64,000 nt of DNA from Terriglobia bacterium (GTDB lineage: Bacteria > Acidobacteriota > Terriglobia > Terriglobales > Acidobacteriaceae). The notes under the pieces were generated by a model, which had not been told where the DNA came from, did not search any database, and saw nothing but the letters and a program-made list of their open reading frames with translations. Of this stretch, positions 2,384-38,376 are shown piece by piece (position 1 is the first letter of the stretch; the number at the start of each line of letters is the position of its first letter). Location of the stretch: positions 1 through 64,000 of the forward strand of contig JAIQGK010000001.1 in the NCBI GenBank assembly GCA_020072645.1, written 5' to 3'. Both the position numbers and the translations under genes were made by a program.

Positions 2384-2824
2384 ATCTCGTCCTATAGGTT
2401 CTCGTGTTGCAGGTTGAACCACGAAGCCTCCTCCCCGCCCAGACGCCATCCCGAGCGGAGCACGCAAAGGAGCAATTCCTCAACCCCGCTTCAATCATAG
2501 GCTTTCGCAATCCAAGCGCCGCAGGCGAGAAATTATTGAGCCCAGGCCGTAAGGCCTGGGTAAGCGTGCAAAATGACAGAGCCCCGGAGCCGGGGTCCCC
2601 AGAGCGTGCCGGTTTTGCGCGCGCTGGGGTGGAGGAGGGGCGACACAAAGATTTATCCAAAGGCATATTTCGGATCAAATTCCAACCCGCTTGACGAATG
2701 AATGAGACATGATGCTCCTTTTCACCGCGGATGTGTCGCCCCTCCGGGGCTTTGATTGGGTCCACAAGCCCACCCACCGCTGACGCGGTGGGCTCAATAA
2801 TTCCGCCCCCTCCGGGGGCAAATC
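2384..2824. repeat. Cluster of GC-rich palindromes (REP-like)
   Basis: A gene-free stretch packed with short perfect hairpins: CCCAGGCC/GGCCTGGG (2541-2560), CCCCGG/CCGGGG (2582-2595), a CCCCAG...CTGGGG element (about 2597-2630), CCCACCGC/GCGGTGGG (2773-2792) and GCCCCC/GGGGGC (about 2804-2820). They stand between a plus-strand operon and a converging minus-strand gene, so some may act as bidirectional transcript ends, although none has a clean U-tract. The open frames here translate these repeats and are not counted as genes. Confidence 0.6.
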
Positions 2825-35244: not shown

Positions 35245-36585
35245 TTAGCGCCGCCGATGCTTAAACGTACGCTTGCCCTGAGCGTAGTCGGTTACGGTCT
35301 GGCCGCTGCCGTGCAGTTTGTATTTGTAAGTAAGCAGCCCTTCCAGGCCCACTGGCCCGCGGGCATGAAGCTTGCTGTTGCTGATCCCCAGCTCTGCGCC
35401 CAGGCCAAAGCGGAAGCCATCGGCAAAGCGGGTAGAGGCGTTGTGGAAGACGCTGGCGGCATCCACTTCATCCATGAATAGATCGGCAGCGCGATCGTCA
35501 TGAGTAAGGATGCTTTCTGTGTGGCGCGAGCCGTAATGGTTGATGTGCTCGATGGCCTCGACTATATCGCTTACGATTTTTACAGTGATTTTGAGATCGC
35601 CATACTCGGTGTGCCAGTCTTGCTCTGTGGCAGGAATGATTTGGCTGTTCGGCAACATCTTGATTGTGCGAGAGCAGCCGCGGACTTCGACCCCCGCTGA
35701 TTGCAACGCGCCGACGAGTGCCGGGAGAAATTCCTGGGCGACTGATTGATGGACCAACACTTTTTCCACTGAATTGCAGGCTGCAGGATATTGAACTTTG
35801 GCGTCGACAATGACGTCCTTCGCGATTTTCAAATCGGCGGCGGAATCAACGTAGATGTGGCAGATGCCGCTGCCGTGGCCGAGAACCGGGATTCGGCTGT
35901 GTTTAAAAACGTAATTCACAAACTCCGTCGATCCGCGCGGGACAACCAGATCAATGTCGCGGTCCATTTCCAGGATCCTTGCCACATCAGCACGGTCTGT
36001 AAGAGCACAAATAGCCGCGCACAGCGAAGGGCTGACAGCAGCGAGCGCTTCATGCCAGATGGAAACCAGGACGCGATTGGTCTGCAGCGCTTCAGCGCCG
36101 CCTTTTAGTACCAGACCATTGCCGGTCTTGATGGCAAGCGAGCCGACTTGCGGCACCACGTCCGGGCGCGATTCAAATATGACAGCCACAACGCCAAGAG
36201 CGCAGGAAACTTTTTGCAATGTGAGACCGTCGTCGAGTTCGGTGGTGGCGAGTACCCGGCCCAGAGGGTCTTCCAGTTTGGCGACATCGCGAACCTGCTT
36301 TGCCATGTCCCTGATGCCGGCAGAGGATGTCTTGAGCCGCTTCAGCAGCGCGGCGGAAGCTATGCCTTTGTGAACTTCGCGAGCTTCTTGTTCCAGAGAT
36401 TCGCAGTCTTGCAGATTCGCCTTGAGAATCTCAGCTTCATGTTGTTCCAGAAGATCGGCGGCGACAAGCAGGATCTGGTTGCGCTGATCAGCGGAAAGGC
36501 GAGCCAGTTCGCGCGCAGCCCGGCGCGCGGCCTGCACCTGCGCGGCAATGGATTCCGAATGTTTAGACTCCGCTGCGCTGGACAT
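35245..36585 (-). CDS. proA: Glutamate-5-semialdehyde dehydrogenase
   Basis: 446 residues. It reduces gamma-glutamyl phosphate with NADPH to glutamate semialdehyde, the second step of proline synthesis. Aldehyde-dehydrogenase fold, with catalytic Cys in QYPAACNSVEKVLVH and conserved GVVAVIFESRPDVVPQ and VDAASVFHNASTRFADGFRFGLGAELGIS. Its start overlaps the end of proB by 23 bases, so translation is coupled. The C-terminus (HARGPVGLEGLLTYKYKLHG) is complete. proC is not in the window. Confidence 0.97.
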   Translation of the reverse strand: MSSAAESKHSESIAAQVQAARRAARELARLSADQRNQILLVAADLLEQHEAEILKANLQDCESLEQEAREVHKGIASAALLKRLKTSSAGIRDMAKQVRDVAKLEDPLGRVLATTELDDGLTLQKVSCALGVVAVIFESRPDVVPQVGSLAIKTGNGLVLKGGAEALQTNRVLVSIWHEALAAVSPSLCAAICALTDRADVARILEMDRDIDLVVPRGSTEFVNYVFKHSRIPVLGHGSGICHIYVDSAADLKIAKDVIVDAKVQYPAACNSVEKVLVHQSVAQEFLPALVGALQSAGVEVRGCSRTIKMLPNSQIIPATEQDWHTEYGDLKITVKIVSDIVEAIEHINHYGSRHTESILTHDDRAADLFMDEVDAASVFHNASTRFADGFRFGLGAELGISNSKLHARGPVGLEGLLTYKYKLHGSGQTVTDYAQGKRTFKHRRR

Positions 36586-37720
36586 TTGTTTCCTTGGTTG
36601 AGAGGATCAGAAAATTTTCGCGGCGCACCAGCACGCCGCGCTTGCTTTGTTCAGACGAAAGCAATGTTTGAAGCTGCTGGCTGCCGAGTTCGGCAATCCC
36701 TTTCCCGATGATATTCCCTTCAGAGTCGAGTACGGCGATCACCTGTCCGGCAGATAATTCGCCTTGACACGCAGTAACTCCGGAGATCAATAAACTGGCC
36801 TGCCTGTGCAGAAGGGCTTTTGCCGCATTGGCATTGATGGTGGCTTGCCCACGGACAGTGGTGGCAAACGCCAGCCACCGCCGCTTCCCCGCCATGCGCG
36901 ATCCGGGCAGAAAAAGCGTGCCCACTTCTTCACCTTGAAATACTCGTTCGAGAATGCCGGGAGTTTTTCCGTTGGCGATTACCACCATCCCTCCGGACTG
37001 CATGGCGATTTCAGCGGCGTCCAGTTTGGCGGTCATGCCCCCGCGTCCGGTGGTTGATGTGCCGCGAGCGGAGTCGCGAATTGCGGCGGTAACTTCAGTG
37101 ACCATGGTTACAACTGTGGCATTCGCCAGATCCCCGTTTGGGCTGTAAAGCAGTCCATCAACGTTGGAAAGCAGGACCAGAGCGTCAGCATCGAGTTTGC
37201 TGAGGACGAGAGCGGCGAGGCGGTCATTATCGCGAAAGACCGGCGCCTGCTCGGTGTAAATATTGGTGACGGTATCGTTCTCATTCACGATTGGCACCGC
37301 GCCGAGCTTCAGCAGACGCTCAAAAGTCTGGCGCAGGATGCTGTAGCGCTTGAGATCGCTGAAGTCATCTTCTGTTACCAGCACCTGCGCGACTTTCACG
37401 CCGTGCGGACGAAAGGATTCAGCGTAAGCCTGCATAAGCCTGCACTGGCCCACGGCGGCGCAAGCGCGGGTGACGCTGGCATCTTTGAGCCGACTGCGAT
37501 GGATTCCCAACTCCGCCGCGCCCAGTGTTACAGCGCCGGAACTGACCAGCACTACCTGGCGGCCTTCTTTGGCTAGCCGGGCGATGCTGTTGGCAAGTGC
37601 GGCGATTTGCAGCGGATCAAATTCGTTCGTGCTGTTGCACACCACGCCGGTGCCGACTTTGATTACAAGGCGGCGGGCATTCACCAGCAGTGCGCGGTGA
37701 TTGATCGATCCGTCGTTCAT
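36563..37720 (-). CDS. proB: Glutamate 5-kinase with PUA domain
   Basis: 385 residues from ATG 37720. It phosphorylates glutamate, the first and feedback-controlled step of proline synthesis. The amino-acid kinase domain opens RRLVIKVGTGVVCN and contains VVLVSSGAVTLGAAELG, VNENDTVTN and GRGGMTAKLDAAEIAMQSGG. A PUA domain follows from about residue 290. The frame is open upstream to 37879, but those residues resemble no ProB and follow the terminator hairpin of the leader. A candidate leader-peptide attenuator precedes the gene. Confidence 0.96.
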   Translation of the reverse strand: MNDGSINHRALLVNARRLVIKVGTGVVCNSTNEFDPLQIAALANSIARLAKEGRQVVLVSSGAVTLGAAELGIHRSRLKDASVTRACAAVGQCRLMQAYAESFRPHGVKVAQVLVTEDDFSDLKRYSILRQTFERLLKLGAVPIVNENDTVTNIYTEQAPVFRDNDRLAALVLSKLDADALVLLSNVDGLLYSPNGDLANATVVTMVTEVTAAIRDSARGTSTTGRGGMTAKLDAAEIAMQSGGMVVIANGKTPGILERVFQGEEVGTLFLPGSRMAGKRRWLAFATTVRGQATINANAAKALLHRQASLLISGVTACQGELSAGQVIAVLDSEGNIIGKGIAELGSQQLQTLLSSEQSKRGVLVRRENFLILSTKETNVQRSGV

Positions 37721-37867
37721 TTTTGTCGCTTTGCTCCAAACCGCCGGGGAGTCTCGCTTATCCTCTGCATCTTCATTCCTCACTGAATCACGCCGCTCGG
37801 CGTGGGTTGCCCCGCGGCTTGGTGCTTGTCGCTGTGTCCCCGAACGACCGGGCGAATCTCTCTTAAC

Positions 37868-37896
37868 AAAAAAACCCACTGCTTGTTGGCAGCGGG
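37868..37896 (-). terminator. Leader terminator upstream of proB (attenuator)
   Basis: On the minus strand CCCGCTGC (37896-37889) and GCAGTGGG (37882-37875) form an 8-bp stem with loop CAACAA, followed by seven U residues. It lies 147 bases before the proB ATG and downstream of the predicted promoter at 38019-38047, so it would end transcription before proB unless the stem is prevented. Confidence 0.8.
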
Positions 37897-37949
37897 GAGG
37901 CGTTGTTTGATTGCTTAAAAACTTTCTTAACTCATAGCCCCCAGCCGCC
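37888..37949 (-). promoter_or_regulatory. Antiterminator pairing of the proBA leader
   Basis: GGCGGCTGGGGGC (37949-37937), at the 3' end of the leader ORF, can pair at 11 of 13 positions with GCCTCCCCGCTGCC (37901-37888), which includes the 5' arm of the terminator. The two structures exclude each other. A small GTGCC/GGCAC hairpin (37968-37953) covers the Pro/Cys codons just before. Confidence 0.6.
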
Positions 37950-38009
37950 TGTGTGCCTACGCGGGCACGGTGGACAACAACACGGCATGGGAGAGCCAGA
38001 GGAGGCCAT
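37932..38009 (-). CDS. Cys/Pro-rich leader peptide upstream of proBA
   Basis: A 25-codon frame with SPMPCCCPPCP in the middle: five Pro and four Cys codons within eleven, including three consecutive TGT. The predicted transcript begins three bases before this ATG (or at an in-frame GTG at 38012), so translation would be leaderless or nearly so; no Shine-Dalgarno is visible. The stop lies just past the antiterminator segment and 36 bases before the terminator stem. Ribosome stalling at the Pro or Cys codons would leave the antiterminator free; fast passage would cover it and favour termination. The downstream proline genes make Pro the expected signal, but the Cys run leaves cysteine sensing open. 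Confidence 0.55.
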   Translation of the reverse strand: MASSGSPMPCCCPPCPRRHTGGWGL

Positions 38010-38018
38010 CACGAGCGA

Positions 38019-38047
38019 ACTATAACCCGCAAAGATGCGCATGGCAA
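38019..38047 (-). promoter_or_regulatory. Sigma70-type promoter of proBA
   Basis: TTGCCA (38047-38042) and TATAGT (38024-38019) with a 17-base spacer on the minus strand, each one or two bases from consensus. The predicted start at 38012 falls right before the leader-peptide ATG at 38009. Confidence 0.7.
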
Positions 38048-38145
38048 GCTGATTAGGAAGATTAATGTAGAGAAATCTGCACCCTTTTTCCGCTTTTGAA
38101 ATCGAAAATTAACTAGAATTACACTAAGGTCATCGGAGCAATTCT

Positions 38146-38376
38146 ATGGCACTCGATTGGTCACAATGTCCGGCGGTGGAAAGTGTCCCCGGTAAGGTAA
38201 GTGGGGCATGGGTTTTTCGCGGCACACGCATGCCGGTGGCGACGGTCTTTGAGAACCTTGAAGCCTGTGCCTCGATTGACGAAATCATGGAATGGTTTGA
38301 TTTGACCCGGGAACAGATCACCGACGCCTTGAATTTTGCCGCACGGAGCCTTGAGGTTTCAGGTTCTTCCCGCTGA
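38146..38376 (+). CDS. DUF433-domain antitoxin-like protein
   Basis: 76 residues. The DUF433 pattern is clear: GKVSGAWVFRGTRMPVATVFENLEACASIDEIMEWF then LTREQITDALNFAAR. DUF433 proteins have a helix-turn-helix-like fold and are usually the antitoxin partner of a PIN-like protein. GGAG lies eight bases before the ATG. Its TGA shares one base with the ATG of the DUF5615 gene (TGATG), showing coupled translation. It is divergent from proB. Confidence 0.9.
   Translation: MALDWSQCPAVESVPGKVSGAWVFRGTRMPVATVFENLEACASIDEIMEWFDLTREQITDALNFAARSLEVSGSSR

Follow-up and report, generated by a model that had tools for sequence, protein, structure and literature searches.

The region upstream of proBA in this Terriglobia bacterium raises the question of whether the operon, which makes proline, is controlled by a ribosome translating a short leader peptide at the very start of the transcript. 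The window examined here, meaning the whole stretch of DNA that was analysed, comprises 64,000 nucleotides (contig JAIQGK010000001.1, positions 1 to 64,000). In it, an earlier note had described a promoter, a leader ORF, a Cys/Pro codon run, an intrinsic terminator, and a gap of 147 nt between the T-run of the terminator and the ATG of proB, and all of these elements were found in place (Table 1). Counted from the GTG, the leader ORF has 26 codons and the run SPMPCCCPPCP occupies codons 7–17; counted from the ATG, it has 25 codons. The distance from the −10 hexamer to the start codon is 6 nt (GTG) or 9 nt (ATG). The final codons of the ORF form a segment, GGCGGCTGGGGGC, which the note had described as pairing 11 of 13 with the 5′ side of the terminator; the pairing itself was confirmed, but the count was not, as the best duplex has 12 pairs. 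The neighbouring DUF433 gene is divergent from proBA, so that no upstream gene in the orientation of proBA is evident to which the terminator could belong, and the promoter, leader ORF, and terminator all lie within the divergent intergenic region. An 88-codon minus-strand ORF that overlaps the DUF433 gene had no Pfam match. The proA copy behind proB is the only one in the genome above the family cut-off.

Table 1. Coordinates of the features at the proBA locus (contig JAIQGK010000001.1) and of the his leader candidate in the same genome.
Feature	Position	Strand	Remarks
σ70-type promoter TTGCCA-N17-TATAGT	38019..38047	−	10/12 consensus matches; the only minus-strand scan pass in 37600–38300
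Leader ORF, GTG (38012) or ATG (38009) to TGA (37934–37932)	37932..38012	−	predicted leaderless; peptide V-MASSGSPMPCCCPPCPRRHTGGWGL
Regulatory codon run SPMPCCCPPCP	37962..37994	−	5 Pro and 4 Cys codons; TGT three times in a row
Segment 1, around the SPMP codons	37983..37996	−	protector helix, partner segment 2; P(1:2) = 0.95 in the ribosome-free full-length leader
Segment 2 GGCGGCTGGGGGC, final codons ahead of the stop	37937..37949	−	pairs with segment 1 or 3
Segment 3, 5′ side of the terminator	37888..37901	−	antiterminator partner of segment 2; duplex −23.2 kcal/mol
Intrinsic terminator	37868..37896	−	8-bp stem (37896–37875) and seven T to 37868; terminator scan
Dispersed ~100-nt repeat, diverged copy	37721..37821	−	abuts the proB start codon; within the 147 nt before proB
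proB, glutamate 5-kinase	36563..37720	−	ATG at 37720; TIGR01027, 296.7 bits (cut-off 186)
proA, glutamate-5-semialdehyde dehydrogenase	35245..36585	−	overlaps proB; above NCBIfam cut-off
DUF433 protein (PF04255), 76 codons	38146–38376	+	Pfam match; divergent from proBA
his leader candidate	G000:C8 near 20869 (L237 / L246)	−	upstream of hisI-hisG

T-boxes are RNAs that sense tRNA and contain no translated ORF; a proline T-box, or another known riboswitch, might control proBA at this locus. T-box control of proBA has been described for some Bacillus in the available part of PMC13198045. Here, no T-box RNA was found upstream of proB: the region 37600–38300, searched with E-values of up to 10, gave four Rfam matches, all to weak lncRNA models, and no Rfam family reached its threshold at the leader. 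The scan thus disfavours such an RNA at the proBA leader, and we regard this explanation as extremely unlikely.

The tests of the leader against chance were all designed after its sequence had been seen. In the 701-bp region (37600–38300), two promoter-like sites were found against a shuffle mean of 0.4, and one terminator-like site was found against a shuffle mean of 0.8; therefore, chance alone could account for the terminator. In 1.244 Mb of the genome (537 promoters and 100 terminators), there were three cases of a promoter with a terminator within the next 260 nt, against an estimate of about five. In other words, the pair alone is near chance, neither rarer nor commoner than expectation. 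The codon run, by contrast, is exceptional. Among 3,571,118 open 11-codon windows, counted in six frames over 2.444 Mb (38% of the genome), 3,024 contained at least four Cys codons, and only two contained at least four Cys together with a Cys and Pro sum of at least nine; these two overlap, and both lie in the proBA leader ORF. Of the codons for Pro, Cys, and His that were counted, TGT was the least frequent, at 2.58 per thousand codons. When the 113-nt leader was shuffled 5,000 times with its dinucleotides preserved, at least four Cys in 11 codons appeared in seven shuffles and at least nine Cys plus Pro in none. The duplex energy between segments 2 and 3 was equalled in 32 of these 5,000 shuffles; five of the 32 also had an ORF of at least 15 codons, and none had the stop correctly placed as well. 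With a shorter terminator arm, the duplex was matched by 40 of 1,000 shuffles. The global folding energy was ordinary, with z values of −0.97 for the leader and −0.63 when it was extended to proB.

The competing helices were then folded in silico with a model ribosome covering 12 nt past the A-site codon; footprints of 9 and 15 nt were also tried. With codons 8–17 in the A site, 11.5–12 pairs between segments 2 and 3 were expected before the 3′ arm of the terminator was made, and this number dropped to 8.7, 5.7, 3.1, and 0 at codons 18, 19, 20, and 21, respectively. The full 12-pair antiterminator was reachable at codons 8–17, and codon 17 is the final codon of the Cys/Pro run. The loss of pairing began one codon later with the 9-nt footprint and one codon earlier with the 15-nt footprint. 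Once the ribosome was at codon 18 or beyond, P(terminator) was 0.92–1.0, and in the full-length leader free of ribosomes it was 0.996, alongside the protector helix listed in Table 1. At full length with a ribosome stalled on codons 8–17, P(terminator) ranged from 0.09 to 0.97, the terminator often being favoured, and even without a ribosome, the leader folded best with segments 2 and 3 paired as long as the 3′ arm had not been made. For these two reasons, the switch depends on the timing of folding, and the modelled RNA equilibria do not amount to a clean switch. The same dependence on which helix folds first as the RNA is transcribed is a feature of other attenuators.

Taken together, the parts suggest the following course of events. 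Transcription would start approximately 6–8 nt below the −10 hexamer, placing the leader ORF at the 5′ end or within approximately 3 nt of it, and the ORF would be translated as a leaderless message. Under a shortage of prolyl-tRNA and/or cysteinyl-tRNA, the ribosome would stall on codons 8–17 and cover segment 1; segment 2, thus freed, would pair with segment 3 before the 3′ arm of the terminator is made, allowing read-through into proBA. When charged tRNA is ample, the ribosome would reach the stop just behind segment 2 and hide this segment, so that the terminator forms. We consider it likely that the proBA leader is a working ribosome-mediated leader-peptide attenuator of the operon. Its signal is probably proline, in view of the operon product and the five Pro codons.

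The five Pro codons fit proBA but the four Cys codons do not, and these four do not fit a pure proline sensor. The CCC run would add a cysteine response, because segment 2 also becomes free when the ribosome is held at these codons. The product of ProB is gamma-glutamyl phosphate, which may offer a metabolic link to gamma-glutamylcysteine and thereby a possible tie of proBA to thiol status. The leader might accordingly be a cysteine-responsive attenuator, with the three consecutive TGT codons as its sensor and proBA coupled to thiol status, as in the leaderless polycysteine ORFs of mycobacteria (cited as a precedent in the available parts of PMC9031893 and PMC13236596). The choice of the rarest codon counted for the CCC run and the liberation of segment 2 in silico by a ribosome at the Cys codons speak for such a sensor. 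The operon product, however, is proline and not cysteine, and three cysK-like loci (L238–L240, of 10 matches) had neither an upstream Cys-run ORF nor a detected terminator. We therefore find a cysteine sensor unlikely and retain proline, either alone or together with cysteine, as the probable signal.

Comparison with relatives gave a different picture for the ORF than for the terminator. proB was above the family cut-off in three of the nine genomes of the genus, and in a search of 398 genomes of the family, a proB of at least 74% identity was present only in those three; among the best 80 of 379 relatives, one close proB (75%) was found, in an Acidobacteriaceae MAG where the match occupies the position that it has in contig C546 of G002. 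We examined 40 proB loci, drawn from the 115 of 398 genomes with matches plus the initial loci. The earlier note had named conservation of the ORF and helices in relatives as a check on its reading, and this conservation was not observed: a leaderless ORF with four Pro or four Cys in nine codons occurred at one of the 40 loci, namely the proBA leader itself, and a promoter with a similar terminator occurred at one of the two close orthologues (G002), the Cys/Pro ORF at neither. Even with a loose scan, a terminator-like site of any kind was seen within 500 nt of proB at six of the 40 loci. At the orthologue in G007, where proB lies directly behind another gene, neither promoter nor terminator was seen. 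Upstream of proB in G002, there is a promoter TTGCAT-N17-TATAGT (8/12 matches) and, at −162 from proB (−154 here), a terminator whose sequence is similar, but no comparable Cys/Pro-rich leaderless ORF. The regions upstream of proB in G002 and in the window aligned better than shuffles under both gap settings. With cheap gaps, the score was 324 against 243 ± 17, a value matched by 0 of 300 mononucleotide shuffles; with costly gaps, it was 92 against 62.5 ± 9.2, matched by 7 of 500. From this alignment, the terminators, and the 40-locus comparison, we conclude that one sister, G002, probably has the terminator in common with the species studied, whereas the Cys/Pro codon run seems, on the evidence at hand, to be private to the latter.

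This distribution bears on a further explanation, according to which the promoter and terminator are the ends of a small RNA, or of a leader that is constitutive and leaks in part, and the ORF is an untranslated coincidence. The counterparts of promoter and terminator in G002, where the ORF has none, and the restriction of the ORF to one of 40 proB loci speak for it. Yet a codon run unique in the sequence searched lies in exactly the right place, the antiterminator segment is closely followed by the stop, and a precedent in the same genome is provided by the his leader described below. We hold a small RNA or leaky leader to be unlikely, and the attenuator remains our preferred reading.

Several matches turned up in these comparisons were set aside or noted separately. 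An exact search for the codon pattern in 61 genomes gave four matches, namely the window and three that by eye lay in unrelated sequence. DNA matches to the intergenic region within the genus proved to be a dispersed repeat and not leader homologues, and one match (L218) sits inside an apparent coding sequence when read by eye. Approximately 220 nt upstream of proB in G002 (L004), an ORF with a TTG start lies 7 nt past TATAGT and carries PPLPC codons in the 5′ side of the terminator. A ribosome stalled on these codons would block the terminator directly, and the arrangement may be due to chance; we did not use it as support, since a C-rich arm encodes Pro anyway.

The dispersed repeat, approximately 100 nt long, is represented at proB by the diverged copy in Table 1. 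It has 22 copies in 1.244 Mb of the genome, of which 11 end within 25 nt of the start codon of a co-oriented ORF and three more are tandem copies with another copy next to them. The genes behind the copies, judged by eye from the starts of their peptides, include rpsF, prfA, ychF, a phosphoglucomutase-like gene, and proB. Its RNAalifold consensus has 11 pairs, four of them with compensatory changes; columns 10–36 contain GC 11, CG 7, and AU 2, and two hairpins were seen, each with an apparent tandem G·A mismatch. A covariance-model search of nine members of the genus found at least 65–66 copies in five, seven in one, one in each of two, and none in one, and outside the genus, matches were obtained in two of 52 other relatives (four and one). 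No Rfam family fitted the repeat at the five repeat-bearing loci scanned, the one sub-threshold match lying elsewhere in them. Two other RNA matches above threshold, both to Acido-Lenti-1, are located in the window at 2515–2560 (−) and 2773–2820 (+), approximately 210 nt apart. For acetolactate synthase (ilvB), none of three matches in the genome of the window was above the TIGR00118 cut-off. With proB in three of nine genomes and no TIGR00118 match above cut-off in that of the window, amino-acid synthesis in the genus is patchy.

How specific the layout of the proBA leader is within its genome was assessed by scanning the window and 119 other stretches (2.444 Mb in all, 38% of the genome), which contained 442 terminator-like sites, for a start codon 5–12 nt below a −10 hexamer, an ORF of 8–45 codons, and a terminator. 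Of the 20 units returned, only the leaders of his and proBA had a promoter with at least 10 of 12 matches, a cut chosen after the his leader had been seen; the reversed sequence gave four units, none with such a promoter. At a cut of at least nine, three further units appeared (two in L209 and one in L323). It is this specificity that leads us to believe that the proBA leader is real despite its lack of conservation in other proB loci. At one of the three further units, in L209 (16403–16600), a promoter-like site and a terminator lie upstream of an apparent rimP-nusA, and a Tyr-rich ORF of 18 codons begins 9 nt after a −10-like hexamer there, which may be chance; an attenuator in a rimP leader is described in the available part of PMC2965389.

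The his leader candidate shows the order promoter, His-codon ORF, terminator, and hisI. Its peptide, MVSLSHRHHHHHYTASVSAEACRS, starts 8 nt after the TTGACA / TAGCAT promoter and is encoded by the codons ATG GTT TCC CTG TCA CAT CGC CAT CAT CAC CAC CAT ... TAA. In contrast to the proBA leader, it recurs in relatives. Among 61 genomes, 47 had a hisI match, and we sampled 30 loci, 27 from the same family and three from the same order. An ORF with five to eight His codons in a nine-codon window was present upstream of hisI at all 30 (including L247–L275 in relatives), while at least five His in nine codons was found in 19 of 3,000 random 430-nt stretches. The promoter scored at least 8 at 29 of the 30 loci and at least 9 at 27, where the start had been picked from one to seven in-frame candidates for the best promoter fit; single random ATGs had promoters of these strengths in 319 and 59 of 20,000 cases, respectively. 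The start codon lies 6–12 nt below the −10 hexamer, with one exception (L267; score 4, 13 nt), and there is therefore little room for a Shine-Dalgarno site. A terminator was detected at 23 loci; at 12 of them, pairing between the terminator arm and the segment ahead of the stop was better than in 95% of shuffles. No Rfam family reached threshold in the five his leader loci scanned. The leader of this genome gave sub-threshold scores of 19.6 bits against RF00514 His_leader (cut-off 49) and 19.9 bits against RF00506 Thr_leader (cut-off 55). Judged from these sequences, the region upstream of hisI is a candidate leaderless His leader-peptide attenuator that is conserved in relatives. No published report of an acidobacterial his leader was met among the titles and abstract openings listed from an open-licence library, and this candidate is possibly more important than the proBA leader.

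The his leader affects the interpretation of proBA in two ways. First, the earlier note had flagged a leaderless leader ORF as unusual; a precedent with the same layout is now available in the same genome, which strengthens the attenuator reading of the note beyond the support it receives at proBA itself. Second, it bears on whether the signal is a charged tRNA at all. The peptide CCCPPCP could arrest its own ribosome, either through its adjacent prolines or as a metal- or thiol-sensing Cys peptide, and the signal would then be EF-P status, metal, or redox. Ribosomes can stall at two adjacent prolines, as described in the available part of PMC8129111; the his leader of the same design, in contrast, looks plainly codon-based, and nascent-peptide arrest appears to us highly improbable. 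We thus keep to codon-dependent attenuation, in which the proBA leader would stand beside the his leader, the conserved example, as the second leaderless leader-peptide system found in this genome.

A broader proposal is that this family of Acidobacteriota has its own class of leaderless attenuators, in which the his leader is old and conserved, and the proBA leader is recent, species-specific, and fused from Pro and Cys codons, such that a shortage of either amino acid raises proline synthesis and gamma-glutamyl phosphate. We offer it tentatively and consider it more doubtful than the individual attenuator at proBA, although it is conceivable. For each of the two leaders, an amino acid and a gene can be named and a switch can be tested, and together they point to leader-peptide attenuation on leaderless messages with intrinsic terminators. 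The proBA leader would also be an example of attenuation by a codon run of mixed composition that seems confined to one species; no published report of a leader peptide at proBA was met among the titles and abstract openings listed from an open-licence library.

Among known systems, the leaderless polycysteine ORFs from mycobacteria (Canestrari et al. 2020, cited by PMC9031893 and PMC13236596) resemble the proBA leader, which is predicted to be leaderless as well, in that a short ORF containing adjacent Cys codons precedes other genes. According to the available parts of these sources, their targets are cysteine genes, whereas here the target is proBA and an intrinsic terminator is present; the Mycobacterium cys leaders are described, in the available part of PMC1262725, as having no conserved hairpins that could be terminators. 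The T-box of Bacillus proBA (PMC13198045, available part) is like the control proposed here in being a proline-linked transcription attenuation of the same operon, but the leader here contains a predicted translated ORF and no T-box was found in it, which suggests that leader-peptide instead of T-box control is possible for proBA. The classical trp, his, and thr leaders (Rfam RF00514 and RF00506) combine a short ORF rich in codons for the product with competing helices and an intrinsic terminator, to which the Pro codons, the predicted helices, and the terminator of the proBA leader correspond. Compared with these, the proBA leader is predicted to be leaderless, belongs to the Acidobacteriota, precedes proBA, and carries a mixed Pro/Cys run.
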